A stretch of 64,000 nt of DNA from Porticoccus hydrocarbonoclasticus MCTG13d. GTDB lineage: Bacteria > Pseudomonadota > Gammaproteobacteria > Pseudomonadales > Porticoccaceae. A program made the position numbers and the translations under genes. The first letter of the stretch is position 1; the number at the start of each line of letters is the position of its first letter. The notes under the pieces were generated by a model that was given only the letters and a program-made list of their open reading frames with translations, searched no databases and was not told where the DNA came from. The DNA lies in contig NZ_JQMM01000001.1 in NCBI RefSeq assembly GCF_000744735.1, positions 1,240,001-1,304,000 of the forward strand, read 5' to 3'. This document shows, piece after piece, positions 5,275-33,762 of the stretch.

Positions 5275-6768
5275 CTACTGTATCAGGACCTTGACCGGCA
5301 ATGCTTCGGTTGGCACAGGCTGGCCATTGTCAAAGCGCGGTCTGAATTTGGTATCAATAATGGTTTTCCTTGCCCGGCGTTCCAGCCCATCGCCCCCTTC
5401 CGGGGAAACACTCAATGTTGTGATTTTGCGGGGTTGCCCTTTTTCGGAGATATTAACGGCAAGCATCACATAGGCCGCGGGTATTGACGGGCTGGTCACA
5501 ATTTCTGTGATGTCGGGCATTGGGGTTTCCTGTTGTTCTGATGAGCGTTCGGTGGAGGTGGTTTGGGCCGTGAGCACGGATTCGGTCTCCATAATGGCCG
5601 AATCGATCGGCCTGGGCAGCATTTTCGGCTCACCCAGCAACGCGGCAATCAGTGCTGTGTCATTCGTCTGTTGCAAGACGCGGTAGGCTTTTTGATAGTT
5701 GTCAATGGCCGGGCCGGTTAGATTGAATAGCATAAACCAATCACCGGTTTTGATATAACCGGTAGCTTTGTCGGCCGCGGATGCCGAGGGGTCCTGTTCC
5801 AGAATATCAATCATCCTGGCATTAGCCCGGCGACCGTTCTGAAAATAGTTTTTGCTGAGGAATGGGTCGTCGGCCACCCAGCGCGCCTGCTGAAATCGCT
5901 CAGACAGGAGGTCTGTATTCTCCCAACTGTTGGCGTATTTTTTCTGATGCCTGTCGAGGTAGTAGTCTGTCATTGCCGAGTTGTACAACAGCCCGGTCAT
6001 GCTGCGATGATCCTCGCCATGTTGCTGCGCGGTGATGGCCAGTGCCCGATTGTAGACGCCATGGGCAACATTCAGATGGTAAATATCATCTCTGTGTCCC
6101 CGGGCATTGTAGGCCCGCAGGTGCCATTGACCGATTTCGTCCAGTAGCGGGAGTATGCGGGGATCATCGGTACCATAGGTTTTGCGGTGCAGCCAGAGTA
6201 GTTTCTGGTAGGCTTCGGCGGCCTCACTGATGAGTCCGAGCTGGATGTGGGTGTTGATAATACCGCGCAACATCGGTTCCTGGGACAGGCTGTAAACGCC
6301 GTTGTTAACACGATTCACGTACATGGCATGACGGAAGGCCTGAATAGCCTCTTTCAGGCGGTTCTGGCGCTGCAGGGTTTTGCCCAGCGCAAAGGTCAAC
6401 TCGGATAACTCCGGATCAAAAGGACCGGCTAGTGCTTCGCGCCGGTCAATAGCCGACTGGTAATCGGCAATAATCTTCGCGGCTTCGGCGGCTTCGGCGG
6501 CTTCGGCGGCTTCGGCGGCTTCGGCGGCTTCGGCGGCTTCGGCGGCTTCGGCGGCTTGGAGGTCGGACTTTTCTGCCTGAGCAGTGGTTTCGCCGTGAGC
6601 CGGGTCACTCTCGATAGTTTGGCGGGCGGATTCGTGTTGCCCGGAGCCCTGTTCAACCGTGCCCGTTTCCGGTAGGTCAGCCGGGGTGTCAGCTTGAGCA
6701 GCGGGCAGACTGCCAAAGGTAAGCAGTAGCATCAACGCGCCGGTAGTATATTTTAGTGAATACCCCAT
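5275..6768 (-). CDS. TPR protein with (EAA)n linker and TonB-like C-terminal domain
   Basis: A 497-residue protein, first gene of the five-gene minus-strand cluster. A signal peptide is predicted over about residues 1-26 (LLLTFGSLPAAQA), followed by an acidic low-complexity stretch that holds eight tandem Glu-Ala-Ala triplets. Residues about 105-360 are helical TPR-like repeats (LGKTLQRQNRLKEAIQAFRHA, EAYQKLLWLHRKTYG). The C-terminal about 75 residues resemble a TonB C-terminal domain (YVMLAVNISEKGQP, followed by RPRFDNGQPVP). The usual TonB N-terminal membrane anchor is replaced by a signal peptide, so this is probably not a classical energy transducer. A peptidoglycan- or partner-binding role is more likely (inference). 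Confidence 0.83.
   Translation of the reverse strand: MGYSLKYTTGALMLLLTFGSLPAAQADTPADLPETGTVEQGSGQHESARQTIESDPAHGETTAQAEKSDLQAAEAAEAAEAAEAAEAAEAAEAAEAAKIIADYQSAIDRREALAGPFDPELSELTFALGKTLQRQNRLKEAIQAFRHAMYVNRVNNGVYSLSQEPMLRGIINTHIQLGLISEAAEAYQKLLWLHRKTYGTDDPRILPLLDEIGQWHLRAYNARGHRDDIYHLNVAHGVYNRALAITAQQHGEDHRSMTGLLYNSAMTDYYLDRHQKKYANSWENTDLLSERFQQARWVADDPFLSKNYFQNGRRANARMIDILEQDPSASAADKATGYIKTGDWFMLFNLTGPAIDNYQKAYRVLQQTNDTALIAALLGEPKMLPRPIDSAIMETESVLTAQTTSTERSSEQQETPMPDITEIVTSPSIPAAYVMLAVNISEKGQPRKITTLSVSPEGGDGLERRARKTIIDTKFRPRFDNGQPVPTEALPVKVLIQ
6478..6558 (-). repeat. Tandem 9-bp repeat, eight Glu-Ala-Ala units
   Basis: On the coding (minus) strand the unit GAAGCCGCC is repeated eight times, preceded by one CAAGCCGCC variant; the last unit ends in a GCG alanine codon. 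The unit is a multiple of three, so copy-number change would lengthen or shorten an alpha-helical or coiled-coil linker in the TPR/TonB-like protein without breaking its frame. The near-perfect DNA-level identity of the units suggests recent slippage. Confidence 0.95.
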
Positions 6769-6848
6769 AGTGAAAGCCCAGTAATGCTAGCGGTCTTAGA
6801 GATGGCTGGCAGGTGAAAGTTCCTTGCGGTATGTTGCACTTTCACGCG

Positions 6849-6868
6849 CTGCACAGGTGCAGTATAAC
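6849..6868 (+). promoter_or_regulatory. Palindromic operator candidate next to a -10-like element upstream of the AEC gene
   Basis: CTGCAC-AG-GTGCAG at 6849-6862 is a perfect 6-bp inverted repeat with a 2-bp centre. It is directly followed by TATAAC at 6863-6868, a good -10 match. No convincing -35 box is present (TTTCAC lies 17 bases upstream), so an activator or a repressor bound at the palindrome could control the AEC / CoA-transferase / C26 hydrolase operon. It also lies in the divergent region shared with the minus-strand envelope cluster. Confidence 0.35.
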
Positions 6869-6904
6869 GCCGCGAACAGATGAATTATCGGGGTTCAACA
6901 AATA

Positions 6905-7795
6905 ATGTTTCTGGCTCTCTGGAATGTGATGGCGCCGGTATTGATCGCCATCACCATTGGTTATTGCTGGGGCCGCTCCCGGGTGCCCTACACCGCGGAA
7001 TTCGTCACCCGTGCCGTGATGAATATCGGTGCACCCTGTCTGGTGGTCTCCGCGATCAGTCGATCGGAGATTTCAGGGTCGGAGTTTGCCGAGGTTGCCG
7101 GTGCCGCTGCGTTTGTTCTGGCCGGCTCAGCACTGCTGGGCTGGGGGGGCATTCGTGCCTCCGGCGGCGATCTCCGGGCGCTGCTGCCATCGGTGACGTT
7201 TCCCAACAATGGCAATATGGGGTTGCCGCTTTGCCTGTTTGCCTTTGGCCAGGAAGGGTTGGCCCTGGCGGTGGGCTTTTTCATCGTACAGATGACTGCC
7301 ATGATGGTATTTGGCATCCCGCTACTCGACAGGCAATCCGGCAATATCTGGTCAATATTGAAAGGCTTTGCCTTTCAACCGTTAATACTTGCGGTCATTA
7401 TTGGACTCGTTCTTCTGGTGGGGAATATCGACCTGCCGCAATGGCTTGACCGGTCTGTTGAACTGCTGGCCGGGTTCACCATTCCACTGATGCTGATCAC
7501 GCTGGGTGTTTCCCTCTCCACGCTGAGTACGTCGGGATGGTGGCGGAGTCTGGGTTACTCGGTGCTGCGAATTGGCGGTGGCCTGGTGATGGCCTGGTTG
7601 GTGGTTGAGTGTCTGGAGATTACCGGCACTGCCCGGGGTGTGGTGCTGCTGCAGGCCATTATGCCTGCGGCAGTATTCAATTATCTACTGGCTCTGAAGT
7701 ATGACCAGGAGCCGACCGCAGTGGCGGGTATTGTGGTGGCCTCCACCGTCATGGCGCTGGTTGCCGTACCAGTATTGTTGGCCGTGTTGTTATAA
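6905..7795 (+). CDS. AEC-family (auxin efflux carrier-like) transporter
   Basis: A 296-residue, highly hydrophobic protein with about ten predicted membrane helices in two halves, the usual AEC/BART-superfamily size and layout. The conserved N-terminal-half motif PNNGNMGLPLCLF is at about residues 100-112. The C-terminal half has small-residue helices (LITLGVSLS, LQAIMPAAVFNYLLALKY). Bacterial members move small carboxylates such as malate or malonate, but the substrate cannot be read from sequence. A class III CoA-transferase starts 13 bp downstream, consistent with uptake of an organic acid followed by CoA activation (inference). Confidence 0.88.
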   Translation: MFLALWNVMAPVLIAITIGYCWGRSRVPYTAEFVTRAVMNIGAPCLVVSAISRSEISGSEFAEVAGAAAFVLAGSALLGWGGIRASGGDLRALLPSVTFPNNGNMGLPLCLFAFGQEGLALAVGFFIVQMTAMMVFGIPLLDRQSGNIWSILKGFAFQPLILAVIIGLVLLVGNIDLPQWLDRSVELLAGFTIPLMLITLGVSLSTLSTSGWWRSLGYSVLRIGGGLVMAWLVVECLEITGTARGVVLLQAIMPAAVFNYLLALKYDQEPTAVAGIVVASTVMALVAVPVLLAVLL

Positions 7796-27771: not shown

Positions 27772-29379
27772 ATGCTTTCTGACTTCAATCATATTAAATC
27801 TCCCGCAGCTTTCGAGGTCGACATATGCATCTTAGGTGGTGGTGCAGCTGGAATTACCATAGCTCTAGAACTTATTGACTCAGGGCTCAGCATATTGCTA
27901 GTGGAAAGTGGTGGGCTCGAATACGACCAAGCGACCCAGGATCTGTATAAGGGGGAGAATGTCAGTTTCAAGGATTTCCCACTTGAAACAACACGGCTGA
28001 GGTTTTTAGGAGGAACTACAAATCATTGGGGCGGTATGTCCCGTCCCCTAGACTCTTATGATTTCCATAGAGAATATGACTCAAACCACTCTAGCTGGCC
28101 ATTAACAAAAGCCGACCTTGCCCCGTATTACGTTAAGGCCCATAAACTTTGTGAGCTTGGCAGTTACATTTACGATGATTACCTTTCTGAGCTAAATTTG
28201 GCGGACGATTTCCCATTACTTGATAAAGAACAATTGCTACGCCCGGTTTTTTTCCAAAGAAGTCCGCCAACCCGTTTTGGAGCCACTTACTTAGATAAAC
28301 TAAAAAAAGCTCAAAATGTAGATGTTCTATTAAATGCCAATGTAAAAGAACTTGTAGACTCAGCTGACCGAAAAAAAATCATTTCTGCATCACTCGTAGC
28401 GCTATCTGGAACCCGAGCCTCAGTGAAAGCCAAGCAATTTGTATTAGCTGCTGGCGGGCTAGAAAATCCACGTATACTGCTTTTATCCAGAACAAACAGT
28501 GAAAAAGGGATCGGCAACTCACATGACTTGGTGGGGCGCACTTACATGGATCACTTTGGGGCATATATTGGAAAAGCTCTTTTTCATAAGCCTATTAATG
28601 CAGACTCAATTTTTTTTAGGGAAAAGAAATTTATGGGCGCTCAGCTAGGGGCATGCCTGGCGCCATCCCCAAAGCGTGCAGAGAAACAAGGAGTAGGTAA
28701 CTATATTTTGTTATTCAGCCCTGGTACTGAATCAGATTTGTCAATTGAAATGCTAAAGAGCATTAAAAATGATATTGCTAATTTAAAGTGGCCAGAAAAT
28801 GCAATCTCCAAATTATCGAAAATAATTGCCAATGCTGATACGTTTGCCAACCTCAGTTATAAAAATGTATTCGATACTAACGATTCATTATTTGATGTAA
28901 GCACCAAGAGTTCCGGTCAGTTGTGTAATGTTGCAATAAATATGGAACAGACACCAAATGACGACAGTAGAGTTACCCTTTCCGCCGAAACTGACAGTCT
29001 TGGGTTACAAAAAATCAAGCTTGACTGGCAACTAAATGACAAAGACAGACAAACCTTAAGGACAGCGGTAAAGGAACTTGCATCGATGTTAGGTCGATCA
29101 GGGACAGGCAGGCTGAGAACTACTTCGAACTTAGAAAGCAATGAGTCAAACTACACCATAAGTTGCCACCATTCAGGTACGACTAGGATGGCATCGGACA
29201 GGACAAAAGGCGTCGTAAACAGTGATTGTAGAGTTCACGGCATTGCGAACCTTTATATTGCCGGAAGCTCGGTTTTTCCCTCGATTGGTTGGGCCAACCC
29301 TACACTCACTATTGTTGCACTGTCTGTTAGACTGGCTGAAACCCTAAAGCTCACTTTTACAGCAAATGAAAATGCATAA
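27772..29379 (+). CDS. GMC-family FAD-dependent oxidoreductase
   Basis: A 535-residue flavoprotein. The FAD-binding loop is ILGGGAAGITIALEL (20-34), followed by LVESGG. TTNHWGGMSRPLD is the GMC substrate/FAD motif. FVLAAGGLENPRILL is the second FAD motif. The C-terminal domain has the active-site histidine region SCHHSGTTRMA and GWANPTLTIVALS. This subfamily usually pairs with a small Tat-exported subunit and oxidises alcohols or sugars. The next gene, overlapping by 14 bp, is just such a subunit. The gene is distinctly AT-rich compared with the core genome around it. Confidence 0.9.
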   Translation: MLSDFNHIKSPAAFEVDICILGGGAAGITIALELIDSGLSILLVESGGLEYDQATQDLYKGENVSFKDFPLETTRLRFLGGTTNHWGGMSRPLDSYDFHREYDSNHSSWPLTKADLAPYYVKAHKLCELGSYIYDDYLSELNLADDFPLLDKEQLLRPVFFQRSPPTRFGATYLDKLKKAQNVDVLLNANVKELVDSADRKKIISASLVALSGTRASVKAKQFVLAAGGLENPRILLLSRTNSEKGIGNSHDLVGRTYMDHFGAYIGKALFHKPINADSIFFREKKFMGAQLGACLAPSPKRAEKQGVGNYILLFSPGTESDLSIEMLKSIKNDIANLKWPENAISKLSKIIANADTFANLSYKNVFDTNDSLFDVSTKSSGQLCNVAINMEQTPNDDSRVTLSAETDSLGLQKIKLDWQLNDKDRQTLRTAVKELASMLGRSGTGRLRTTSNLESNESNYTISCHHSGTTRMASDRTKGVVNSDCRVHGIANLYIAGSSVFPSIGWANPTLTIVALSVRLAETLKLTFTANENA

Positions 29380-29797
29380 TTCATCTTTAAGTAGGCGAAC
29401 ATTCTTTCGAGGTATGGCCACATTAATGGCCGGATTCTTTGGATATGGATATTCCTTTGGAAGTGCAGGAGATCCCATTGCACAACAGGAATTTGCCAAG
29501 AACTTAAGGCATACATTAAACAAAAATGGGTATGTCTTCTCGCCTATTTCTAAATGTTTTTTAGACCTGCATAGTAGCGTTTTTGAATTACAGGAAAAAT
29601 TATGGCTAACAATACATTCAGATCAGGGCTGTAGCCATAGTAAGGAAAACAAAGAAACCAATCTAACCGTCGATCAGGATAAATTATTCTCTGTCATTTC
29701 ATCTGATTTTAGAGATGGGCAGATAGTTAACATAAACGGCTGGTATATATCTAACACCGAATATTTAATGCTGTCTTATCTATCCAGAGTGGCATAG
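29366..29797 (+). CDS. Tat-signal small subunit of a GMC dehydrogenase
   Basis: A 143-residue protein with a twin-arginine signal (SLSRRTFFRGMATLMAGFFG) at residues 7-26. The remainder is helical with no heme motif, matching gluconate-2-dehydrogenase subunit-3/sorbosone-type small subunits that carry their catalytic partner through the Tat pathway. It overlaps the GMC gene by 14 bp. A cytochrome c third subunit, often present, is not found nearby, so the electron acceptor is unclear. The ribosome site is weak; expression may depend on coupling. Confidence 0.75.
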   Translation: MKMHNSSLSRRTFFRGMATLMAGFFGYGYSFGSAGDPIAQQEFAKNLRHTLNKNGYVFSPISKCFLDLHSSVFELQEKLWLTIHSDQGCSHSKENKETNLTVDQDKLFSVISSDFRDGQIVNINGWYISNTEYLMLSYLSRVA

Positions 29798-30063: not shown

Positions 30064-30255
30064 TTATGCCATAAGGAACTCTTGTAAAGCTCTTTTGGCG
30101 CCTTCAGTTGTTTTTCGAGCTTCTTCTTCTTGTTTATCGATTGTGTTCGTTTTCGCACAAGTCTTTTTAGGGAAGAACTCTTTTTCAAAGTTCATTACTT
30201 TGATCTTCGACTTAGTGACCGTTTTGCCTTTGCTTTGTATGTTATTTGTATTCAT
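30064..30255 (-). CDS. Small charged protein downstream of the proteasome-like gene
   Basis: A 63-residue protein starting 9 bp after the stop of the proteasome-like gene, so probably co-translated. It is rich in Lys, Glu and Thr, and its C-terminal half is predicted helical (DKQEEEARKTTEGAKRALQEFL), with one cysteine. No family is recognised. Possible roles include a substrate, cap or inhibitor of the upstream protein (speculative). It could also be a chance frame; the tight spacing argues for a gene. Confidence 0.5.
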   Translation of the reverse strand: MNTNNIQSKGKTVTKSKIKVMNFEKEFFPKKTCAKTNTIDKQEEEARKTTEGAKRALQEFLMA

Positions 30256-30264
30256 GTCAGGATC

Positions 30265-31581
30265 TCACTTTTTGCCGTTATAGTAGTTAGCAAAGAAATG
30301 CTGGTTATACTTCGGTTCAAAATAGTGCTTCCGCTTAAACCATACAAACCCGTCGCCTTTGGATAGTATAGCTACATCTATGGGGCCGCCCACTGATTCG
30401 GGCGAATTAGACATCTTTCTTTTGAATGCCGTTAAGTTTACAAGAGTTTCCGCCATCTCTGCTAGCTCATCTTTCGGTAAATATTCGAGCATTTCAAGAA
30501 TCGGTTTCAAAACTGTGGTCTTTTTAATATTATCAAGACTTTCATTAAGGTCATTCATGAAGCTATCAATATGTGTCTTCACTGCACTCCTAGCGTCTTC
30601 CTGTGACATGCTTTCATTAAATAAGTTGTCTGGAAGATGATCTGCAATGTACGAAGATAGTCCATTCTTTAGCATTTCAAAGATGTTATTGAATGCAGGA
30701 TCCATGCCTGTTAGAAAGGTTCTTACAACTTCATCTTGGGCAAAGGGTATAATGGAGGGAGTAAAACTTTCTGTCTGGGTGGTGCTGGATCCAGGTTGGA
30801 ACATGCTTCTTGGTTTTCCGTTGAGTATAATTCCTACTTGGTATGAGGCTATTCTGGGGTATATCTCATTGCACCCATATCCGGCAAAAACTATACCGCT
30901 CGACTGATCAAAATCTCTTTTTACTAGAGATAATGCAAGAACTTTATGTATTTTATCTTTTAGATTCTCGTCAATTGACTGGTAGAAGTTTTCGAAAATG
31001 CTCTGTAGCTCGGTGTCAATTTGAAGTGAATAATCAGAAATGAATTTTGATTCGTCATGCCCGTCAAAGTTATCTAGATTTTCTAGTGTCTCTAAATGCT
31101 TCTTCTCGGATTCAAGGATCTCTTCTAGAGAGCTAATGTAGGAGTCCGAAAAATCTTCTTCGGTAATATTGTCTTTAACATCAGCATACTTAGCTCGCAC
31201 TGACTCGAGGCACCTCTCTCTTATATTGACCAGTCTTGTTACGATCTTTTCTTGGACGTGTTTTTGTTCTTCGTGAATGGAGAATATGTTTCTGTTGTTT
31301 GTGGTGAACCTCCAGAAGTCTTCGGCGTACTCTAACAGAGTGCCGAATGAGCTATCTCCAAGTTGCGCCCGATATTCCTTAAGTAGTATTTCCCATGGGA
31401 CACCTACGAAGCTTCCTCCGCCATAAACCATAAATGCTACTGGTTGATATTTAGAGAGCATGAAAAGCTTGTTGACAGAGTTGTATATTTTTCGAGTGTC
31501 TTGAGGTGAGCCAATGGAGACAGCACTATCCGCCGCTAAAGCAATACCGTTTTTATTGAGGATAGCAATCTCGGCTGTCAT
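30265..31581 (-). CDS. Proteasome-beta-like Ntn-hydrolase candidate
   Basis: A 438-residue protein whose first 60 residues fit the proteasome/HslV fold. After Met removal, Thr2 would be the N-terminal nucleophile. LNKNGIALAADSAVSIG puts Asp18 at mature position 17, the conserved Asp17. Lys31 in RKIY matches Lys33 of the beta subunit, which also precedes I/V-Y/R. FMVYGGGSFVG matches the S2-H1 turn. A helical, acidic insert of roughly 120 residues follows, then SGIVFAGYGCNEIYPRIASYQVGI, like a second sandwich strand pair, and a C-terminal extension. It is larger than any standard beta subunit. No ATPase partner is adjacent. It sits 3' of tRNA-Ile2 in an AT-rich segment. Confidence 0.72.
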   Translation of the reverse strand: MTAEIAILNKNGIALAADSAVSIGSPQDTRKIYNSVNKLFMLSKYQPVAFMVYGGGSFVGVPWEILLKEYRAQLGDSSFGTLLEYAEDFWRFTTNNRNIFSIHEEQKHVQEKIVTRLVNIRERCLESVRAKYADVKDNITEEDFSDSYISSLEEILESEKKHLETLENLDNFDGHDESKFISDYSLQIDTELQSIFENFYQSIDENLKDKIHKVLALSLVKRDFDQSSGIVFAGYGCNEIYPRIASYQVGIILNGKPRSMFQPGSSTTQTESFTPSIIPFAQDEVVRTFLTGMDPAFNNIFEMLKNGLSSYIADHLPDNLFNESMSQEDARSAVKTHIDSFMNDLNESLDNIKKTTVLKPILEMLEYLPKDELAEMAETLVNLTAFKRKMSNSPESVGGPIDVAILSKGDGFVWFKRKHYFEPKYNQHFFANYYNGKK

Positions 31582-31635: not shown

Positions 31636-31712
31636 TGGTGGGCCTTGCTGGACTTGAACCAGCGACCAATCGATTATGAGTCGACTGCTCTAACCAACTG
31701 AGCTAAAGGCCC
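31636..31712 (-). tRNA. tRNA-Ile2 (CAU anticodon)
   Basis: A 77-nt cloverleaf on the minus strand. The acceptor stem GGGCCTT/AAGGCCC pairs fully, the D-loop is AGCTCAGTTGGTTAGAGC, the anticodon loop is CTCATAA and the T-arm GCTGG-TTCAAGT-CCAGC; CCA is encoded. The CAU anticodon could be Met, but the body closely follows E. coli tRNA-Ile2 (TTGGTCGCTGGTTCAAGTCC) and not elongator tRNA-Met. The wobble C is expected to become lysidine through TilS, so the tRNA reads AUA. It lies 125 bp downstream of rpoD on the same strand. Confidence 0.93.
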
Positions 31713-31836: not shown

Positions 31837-33654
31837 TTATTCGTCCAGGAAGCTGCGCAAGTGATCAGAGCGGGTGGGGTGCCGCAGTTTTCGCAGCGCT
31901 TTGGCTTCGATCTGTCGGATCCGCTCACGGGTCACATCAAATTGTTTGCCCACTTCTTCGAGGGTGTGGTCGGTATTCATGTCGATACCAAACCGCATCC
32001 GCAAGACTTTGGCTTCCCGGGCTGTCAGATTGTTGAGGACGTCACGGGTGGATTCGGTGAGACTTTCCGTGGTGGCGGAATCCACCGGGGACATGATGTT
32101 GGTGTCCTCGATAAAGTCGCCCAGGTGGGAGTCTTCGTCGTCGCCAATGGGTGTCTCCATGGAGATCGGTTCTTTGGCGATTTTCAGTACCTTGCGGATT
32201 TTGTCCTCGGGCATTTCCATTCTTTCGCCGAGTTCTTCCGGCGTGGGTTCGCGGCCCATTTCCTGCAGCATCTGCCGGGAGATACGATTGAGTTTGTTGA
32301 TGGTTTCAATCATATGCACCGGAATACGGATGGTGCGCGCCTGGTCGGCGATGGATCGGGTGATGGCCTGACGGATCCACCAGGTGGCATAGGTCGAGAA
32401 TTTGTAGCCGCGGCGGTATTCAAACTTGTCCACCGCCTTCATCAGGCCGATGTTGCCTTCCTGAATCAGGTCGAGGAATTGCAGGCCGCGGTTGGTGTAT
32501 TTCTTGGCAATCGAAATTACCAGACGCAGGTTGGCTTCCACCATTTCTTTTTTGGCGCGACGAGCCTTGGCCTCGCCGATTGACATGCGGCGATTGATAT
32601 CCTTGATCTGGCTGATGGTCAGGCCGGTTTTTTCTTCCAGCTGCATCAGTCGGCGCTGGGACCGCTGAATGTCCGGTTCTACCACGGCGATTGCAGCGGC
32701 ATAGGGTTCCTTGCCTTTGGCCAGTCCAGTGGCCCAGCTTTCATCGGTTTCGTGGCCGGGAAACAGGCCGATAAAGTCGGTGCGCGGCATTTTTGCCTGG
32801 CGAATACAGAGCGCCATAACGGTGCGCTCTTCCGCACGAATAAGACTCAGGGCTTCGCGAACTGCCTCTGCCATGGGTTCGAACTGGCGGGGTGCCAGTT
32901 TCAGGAACTTAAAGTGCTCGCCCAGTGCAGACAGGTGCTGCTGGGTGCTTTTATGGGCCACACCATAACGACTGATGGCCTTTTTGGCCTTGTTGTTCAA
33001 CTGCCGCAGGGTGTCAAAACGCTCTTTGGCTTCGATGGGGTCGAGACCCGTGTCTTCTGCCTCGTCTTCGTCTTCGTCTTCCTCTTCCTTGTTTTTGGCC
33101 GCTTCGGCCTGGGCGAGGGCGGAGGGAACGTGGTCCATCGGGTTCAGATAACCGATTAACACATCGCTGAGTTTGCGTTCCTCGGTTTCAATCAGGTCGT
33201 ATTCAGCGAGGAGGTGATCCACAGCGGCGGGCCATTCGGCAAGGGCTGCCATGAGTTCCCGGACGCCTTCCTCGATGCGCTTGGCGATTTCTATTTCGCC
33301 TTCGCGAGTGAGCAGCTCCACCGAACCCATTTCACGCATGTACATACGAACCGGGTCAGTAGTGCGGTGTTGTTCTGTCTCGACAGCCGCCAGCGCTGCT
33401 GCGGCTTCAGCAGCAGCGATTTCATCGGTGGTGGAGTCGCCGGAGGCGATCAGGAGCTGTTCGGCATCGGGGGCGGTTTCGTAAACGCTGATCCCCATGT
33501 CGTTGATCATCTGAATGATATCTTCTACCTGATCTGGATCAGAAATATCCTCAGGTAAATGGTCGTTGACTTCGGCATAGGTCAAATAACCCTGTTCGCG
33601 TCCGCGGGCAATTAGTTCCTTGATCCGGGATTGATGCTGTGCGTTACCACTCAT
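31837..33654 (-). CDS. rpoD: RNA polymerase sigma factor RpoD (sigma-70)
   Basis: A 605-residue housekeeping sigma factor. The start is set at ATG 33654, where homology to E. coli RpoD begins ([27 protein letters not shown] region); a longer frame adds 31 unrelated residues. Region 1.2 is [22 protein letters not shown]. The acidic non-conserved region has a DEDEDEAED run. Region 2 has [20 protein letters not shown]-type sequence (here [20 protein letters not shown]), region 3 [10 protein letters not shown], and region 4 [23 protein letters not shown]. It is the last protein gene of the rpsU-yqeY-dnaG-rpoD group. Confidence 0.98.
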
Positions 33655-33762
33655 ATACGATCTGCTGTCACGTTGGGGCAAAATAGGACGCCGGATTATA
33701 CGGCAATAATCCGGCGCTGTCTTACCTGATTTTCGGTATAGCTGCAATTAGCCAGCTGTCGG

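Follow-up and report, generated by a model that had tools for sequence, protein, structure and literature searches.

Some two dozen proteasome-like families without a functional handle were catalogued in 2021 (Fuchs, Alva and Lupas 2021, PMC8665760). In that catalogue, PMI-3 and PMI-4 (the latter standing for Proteasome homolog with Multiple Insertions 4) combine insertions after H1/H2 with insertions between H3 and H4, and insertions at both these sites were argued to stand in the way of ring formation. Of the two, PMI-4 is the abundant one, with members spread over bacterial phyla and also present in phages. The authors of the catalogue found no suggestive genomic context (PMC8665760).

The window analyzed here is a stretch of 64,000 nucleotides from Porticoccus hydrocarbonoclasticus MCTG13d. 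It encodes a 438-residue protein that is a full-length match of phrog_5990 (E 3e-116, PHROGs v4), which PHROGs lists with function unknown and with neither a fold nor a partner gene. In the AlphaFold2 model both insertion sites known from PMI-3 and PMI-4 are occupied, and judged by this architecture the protein is most likely PMI-4. The two share a propeptide-less proteasome β fold, both insertion sites, the T/D/K triad and a broad bacterial and phage range. Since the protein is phrog_5990 with PMI-4 architecture, the fold itself is not new and belongs to a family that is already catalogued and uncharacterized. The present analysis adds a small ORF directly behind the enzyme gene and a lysogenic or mobile placement of the family. 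These two features are not mentioned in PMC8665760 and seem to be new. Literature searches, including those by accession and PHROG number, returned no other papers on the family in the library searched.

The locus behind rpoD

The relevant features of the window are as follows.

30064..30255, minus strand: small basic putative partner ORF, 63 aa, in the same reading frame as the enzyme gene
30265..31581, minus strand: proteasome-like Ntn-hydrolase gene (phrog_5990; PMI-type architecture), 438 aa from ATG
31636..31712, minus strand: tRNA-CAT (ARAGORN), border of the variable site
31837..33747, minus strand: rpoD, conserved chromosomal flank, assigned by sequence (the L001 orthologue matches sigma-factor phrog_351)

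Both ORFs have the coordinates and lengths of the original prediction, and the 63-aa ORF starts 9 bp past the stop of the 438-aa ORF. The AT-rich setting beside a tRNA is also borne out. The GC content of positions 30064–31581 is 39.7%, compared with 53.0% for the whole window, and the AT-rich stretch spans about 26 to 32 kb. The tRNA-CAT is located 54 bp upstream of the enzyme gene, behind rpoD. ARAGORN labels this tRNA as Met. Its sequence resembles E. coli ileX (tRNA-Ile2), and in E. coli ileX also follows rpoD. For these two reasons it is probably tRNA-Ile2 despite the Met label, as had been proposed.

The rpoD gene is conserved in 56 of 57 genomes of the order. The stretch downstream of rpoD and the tRNA varies from relative to relative. 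In relatives (L130–L160) the site that follows the tRNA-CAT (31636–31712 in the window) is filled by AAA-ATPase-like and other unrelated genes. This hypervariability with unrelated occupants suggests an insertion hot spot. Among the relatives examined, the module is present behind rpoD and the tRNA only in the genome of the window and in Aestuariicella, in which tblastn found a relative of 77% identity. Homology between these two genomes ends where the module ends. In Aestuariicella the module is followed by a recombinase and a VapE-domain protein, a combination typical of a mobile island. Near the window copy no integrase or att repeat is recognizable, and an att duplication of the tRNA end was rejected, as a second copy is absent from the window. 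The hypervariable site and the occurrence of homologs in phages, satellites and plasmids support the earlier suggestion that the module is acquired DNA.

The AT-rich stretch additionally contains, at 27772–29797 on the plus strand, a gene for a GMC-type oxidoreductase in overlap with an ORF of 143 aa, whose start (SLSRRTFFRG) is twin-arginine-like. This pair resembles a two-subunit dehydrogenase.

Fold, inserts and active site of the enzyme

Pfam PF00227 (Proteasome) matches residues 5–39 of the window protein with 14.5 bits (E 0.028), which is under the curated cut-off of 22.4. The case made from this one sequence was therefore borderline; the homologs change the picture. Full-length relatives at about 27–34% identity were found by tblastn in phages and plasmids. 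When viral contigs were searched, the window protein as single query gave no matches, and 167 matching stretches were found with an alignment as query. PF00227 is the commonest Pfam match among 53 homologs (7/53; best E 2.4e-4). The profile built from 53 homologs for the PDB search places Thermoplasma proteasome β first and matches 1pma/3c91 at both ends, with Thr2 on Thr1, KLF on K33-LF and VGGPIDVAVISKGDG on SGGMIDVAVITRKDG.

The AlphaFold2 model (pLDDT 87.8, pTM 0.83) shows the four-layer α-β-β-α sandwich of proteasome β subunits. It aligns to 20S proteasome β and Anbu with a Z-score of 16.2, and every PDB match listed is to a proteasome or Anbu structure, with Z about 16 over 175–200 residues. 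The top Foldseek match is 1ryp_K (E 3e-4). In the structural alignment, residue 2 of the model sits on chain residue 1 of both proteasome β and Anbu. Because profile and model both match proteasome β, the predicted fold stands up to the check for the four-layer sandwich. Together with the conservation described below, this strongly supports the proteasome/HslV-type Ntn-hydrolase fold of the original prediction.

The residues and segments discussed in this section are encoded as follows.

31576..31578, minus strand: codon of Thr2, the nucleophile after Met removal (Thr1 equivalent), invariant in 78/78, structural alignment
31528..31530, minus strand: codon of Asp18 (Asp17 equivalent), invariant in 78/78, profile alignment
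31468..31470, minus strand: codon of Lys38 (Lys33 equivalent), invariant in 78/78, K38-L-F on K33-L-F of Thermoplasma β
30922..31278, minus strand: insert 1, residues 102–220, acidic helical bundle after H1/H2 (AlphaFold2 secondary structure)
30484..30699, minus strand: insert 2, residues 295–366, helical, between H3 and H4 (AlphaFold2 secondary structure)
30373..30393, minus strand: VGGPIDV motif, residues 397–403, equivalent to S169-GG of the proteasome (profile alignment to 1pma/3c91 β)

Conservation was counted in 78 distinct homologs with identities down to 27%. Aligned to 1pma β, all 78 have the N-terminal nucleophile and the equivalents of Asp17 and Lys33. Thr2 and Asp18 thus hold the roles assigned to them at the outset. 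The third residue had been assigned to Lys31, which is conserved in 77/78 and turned out to be off by one conserved lysine. Lys38 fits better as the Lys33 equivalent, since the Thermoplasma β alignment and the strand pattern agree: in the model Lys38 immediately precedes strand 39–41, which pairs toward strand 49–53. Lys31 was accordingly replaced by Lys38 as the catalytic lysine.

In every homolog Thr follows the initiator Met, and no propeptide is present. Methionine aminopeptidase removes a Met that precedes Thr, so trimming by this enzyme would expose the Thr nucleophile, and Asp18 and Lys38 would complete the triad. The position of proteasome Ser169 is occupied by an invariant valine (Val397) in the homologs. 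As this second-shell serine is replaced throughout, the chemistry may be different from that of the proteasome. The same replacement could be expected of a catalytically silent scaffold, which has kept the fold and acts by binding, with the two large inserts as possible binding platforms. Such a scaffold is very improbable, as a Thr directly after Met together with Asp18 and Lys38, invariant in 78 proteins of such low identity, is hard to explain without catalysis.

In the model, helices H1/H2 comprise residues 63–95, H3 residues 283–291 and H4 residues 370–390. Insert 1 has a length of 119 aa and contains 28 Asp/Glu and 14 Lys/Arg residues. The acidic insert of about 120 residues that had been proposed is therefore real, but the second helical insert had been missed. 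The two inserts decorate the core and probably control both access to the active site and the oligomeric state. The hydrolase had also been proposed to be self-compartmentalized or stand-alone; self-compartmentalization would require a ring, the assembly of which inserts at these two sites were argued to hinder (PMC8665760).

The enzyme thus resembles 20S proteasome β and Anbu in its fold and in the equivalents of Thr1, Asp17 and Lys33. It differs from them by helical inserts and other additions that amount to about 240 residues, by the missing propeptide and by the Val at the Ser169 position. Furthermore, neither an α subunit nor an unfoldase adjoins the window gene. With HslV it has the superfamily in common; unlike HslV, it is mobile, has large inserts and is encoded at a locus without an HslU-like AAA+ gene next to it. 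The host's own hslVU sits elsewhere in the genome.

The small partner ORF

Of 70 distinct loci, 65 have an ORF of 40–75 aa directly behind the enzyme gene, whereas only 66 of 540 control ORFs (12%) are followed by one. For this count an ATG start within −35 to +30 bp of the enzyme stop was required, the 70 loci were those with enough downstream sequence, and the controls were ORFs of the same loci. For several of these ORFs, GenBank records carry an annotation of their own. In 17 of 18 close pairs their pN/pS is 0.15–0.52, mostly above that of the enzyme; the 18th pair is too similar to tell. The 63-aa ORF of the window has a pN/pS of 0.35 relative to its L001 orthologue. The small ORF is thus under purifying selection and yet fast-evolving, and the proposal that the 63-aa gene is a partner of the enzyme gains support from both its recurrence and its selection.

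The small proteins have 45–71 residues and are net positive in 54 of 62 cases, whereas 75 of the 78 enzyme homologs are acidic. Typical net charges are about +4 for the small protein and −17 for the enzyme. Adjacent aromatic residues are present in 29 of 62 small proteins, compared with 14.6 in shuffled sequences (0 of 1000 shuffles as high). They are part of short motifs: EKEFFPK in the window, ELREWQKxFNPS in one gammaproteobacterial group and KDFF in another group. Aromatic residues at the C-terminus are not enriched (23/62 versus 20.0 in shuffles), and an activating tail of the HslU or HbYX-like type was rejected. A Pfam search with the small protein gave no match and hence no DNA-binding domain. 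The two ORFs of the window happen to be in one frame, and a read-through fusion was modeled. It shows a disordered tail, a C-terminal helix (residues 39–62) at a pLDDT of about 60 and no confident docking.

Because a tiny, fast-changing gene nearly always follows the enzyme gene, the hydrolase does not seem to act alone, and the system has the look of a switchable enzyme made of two parts. That the two ORFs occur together on the genome does not prove an interaction of their products. The product of the second gene would be a basic protein of 45–70 aa, mostly disordered, that carries a short aromatic motif (EKEFFPK in the window) and has a helix at its C-terminus. Judging from charge, it may bind the acidic enzyme and either hold it off or switch it on.

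A small, disordered protein of the size of Pup might also be a substrate. In that case the enzyme would be a peptide ligase that conjugates the small protein to targets by transpeptidation, combining connectase-like chemistry with Pup-like logic. A ligase is indeed known among proteasome homologs, namely connectase (PMC8665760), which shares with the present family that it is proteasome-like and probably not a bulk protease. Connectase lacks H1/H2 and has a two-helix insertion between S3 and S4, and the window family shows the opposite: in the AlphaFold2 model H1/H2 are present and the loop from S3 (39–41) to S4 (49–53) has 7 residues, leaving the connectase insertion site unused. A GGE or GGQ terminus is absent from all aligned small proteins, and an identity as Pup was rejected.

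The ligase reading finds some encouragement in two rhizobial lineages. In Rhizobium and Mesorhizobium, the module is located within 1.5 kb of a cassette of multiubiquitin-E2, ThiF(-JAB) and DUF6527 genes. The enzymes of the two lineages are about 30% identical and the cassettes 37%. A cassette JAB and a ClpP-like gene are found in Rhizobium. However, the cassette is transcribed as a unit of its own, and the other bacterial loci in the comparison do not have it. For this reason its association is a lead only, and an obligatory partnership was rejected, as the cassette is confined to these two lineages. Taken together, a role in peptide ligation appears improbable.

Multiubiquitin-E2, ThiF and DUF6527 cassettes were located at L020:7671-10177, L022:7699-10187, L023:7687-10174 and L017:2733-4799. 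In L020 a 215-aa protein starting FILGFHGCDEDTAVDLLNG is encoded between the module and the cassette (6396-7043, minus strand). It has no Pfam match and is reminiscent of ADP-ribosyltransferase-like DUF3990 proteins.

Mobile elements and proposed role

Most homologs reside in prophages, in satellites of streptococci, on plasmids and at tRNA hot spots. Thirteen phage or satellite records and 10 plasmids carry a homolog, and the module is present in phages of Providencia, Stenotrophomonas, Porphyromonas and Streptococcus. Its distribution is patchy. It occurs in 22 of 5,426 E. coli genomes, a phylum survey of 398 species gave 10 matches besides the genome of the window (G000), and in one alphaproteobacterial family 12 of 248 genomes matched, five of the 12 with short partial matches only. 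Within one genus of this family (L177–L181 in G791, G763, G887, G848 and G727), a different open frame of 250–310 residues matches the C-terminal GGxxDVA segment only. These frames perhaps belong to another proteasome-like family.

In viral contigs, a phage repressor or regulator is frequently the upstream neighbor (phrog_4 in 12/43, plus others) and the downstream neighbor is antiterminator Q in 12/47, usually in convergent orientation. The E. coli module either lies directly behind an HTH repressor-like gene or forms a unit opposite to late genes, and the latter orientation is also seen in Stenotrophomonas elements. In satellites, the gene preceding the module encodes an HTH protein with a relationship to addiction-module antidotes. 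Positions such as these are where genes that are expressed in the lysogen are placed. The streptococcal satellites L009:3328-3979, L012:3328-3979, L015:2328-2979 and L016:2335-2983 have two small genes directly upstream, the second of which is the antidote-related HTH gene.

An addiction role and a role in the phage cycle are the main rivals to the explanation favored here. In a toxin-antitoxin module, the Ntn hydrolase would act as a toxin by cleaving proteins, the small disordered protein would serve as the antitoxin, and the pair would stabilize prophages, plasmids and islands rather than act against phages. The two-gene organization in 65 of 70 loci, the faster evolution of the small partner, the opposite charges and the carriage on mobile elements all suit such a module. 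Even so, it appears rather unlikely, as no known toxin family was matched and the small protein, lacking a Pfam match, offers no DNA-binding domain for autoregulation of the operon. The enzyme gene copies L023:5001-6250 and L024:5001-6249 are frameshifted or stop-ridden, and L023 keeps an intact small-partner ORF. Loss of the enzyme gene with the small gene intact is compatible with either view.

Alternatively, the enzyme may process a phage or host protein for the benefit of the element itself, in prophage maintenance or host modulation, and not in defense. This is consistent with the proximity to repressors and antiterminator Q. Some phage copies lie outside clear lysogenic operons, and the one among structural genes of a Porphyromonas phage would likewise agree with a phage-cycle function. 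On the other hand, the sites within phages vary, and the module also occurs alone in chromosomes and plasmids outside recognizable prophages, as in the window and in L161–L167. A phage-cycle function is therefore considered unlikely.

The explanation that we tentatively prefer, at somewhat less than an even chance, is a mobile two-gene module in which a propeptide-less Thr hydrolase is controlled by its small partner and probably protects the host or lysogen. The fold, the catalytic residues, the two-gene organization and the mobility are shown by the analysis. Proteolysis, binding and regulation by the small partner, and defense are inferred from what is known of the family, from charge and from location, defense from the last of these. 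The pair would be lysogenic cargo of prophages, satellites, plasmids and tRNA islands. Most likely, a trigger would lead to cleavage of a protein target, by which the lysogen or host is protected from other mobile elements, and this protection would be the reason why mobile elements retain the module. A more far-reaching version, that the module belongs to a previously undescribed class of systems acting against phages or between elements, is possible but less likely than not. In such a system a mobile proteasome-like Thr hydrolase would be held inactive or made specific by a co-encoded partner of 45–70 aa, and in some lineages it would be tied to bacterial ubiquitin-like conjugation.

PADLOC-DB 2.0.0 gave no convincing defense match, only a BrxC match of 19 bits and a weak capH match. 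The BrxC match (E 6e-5, residues 71–195) lies in the helical insert and covers a small part of the 1190-residue model; it was rejected as a coiled-coil chance match.

If the preferred explanation is true, conflicts between mobile elements would be a setting in which the proteasome fold works beyond housekeeping proteolysis. With a conserved partner gene, and with a placement as lysogenic cargo that recurs in phages and satellites, the family gains a function that can be tested.
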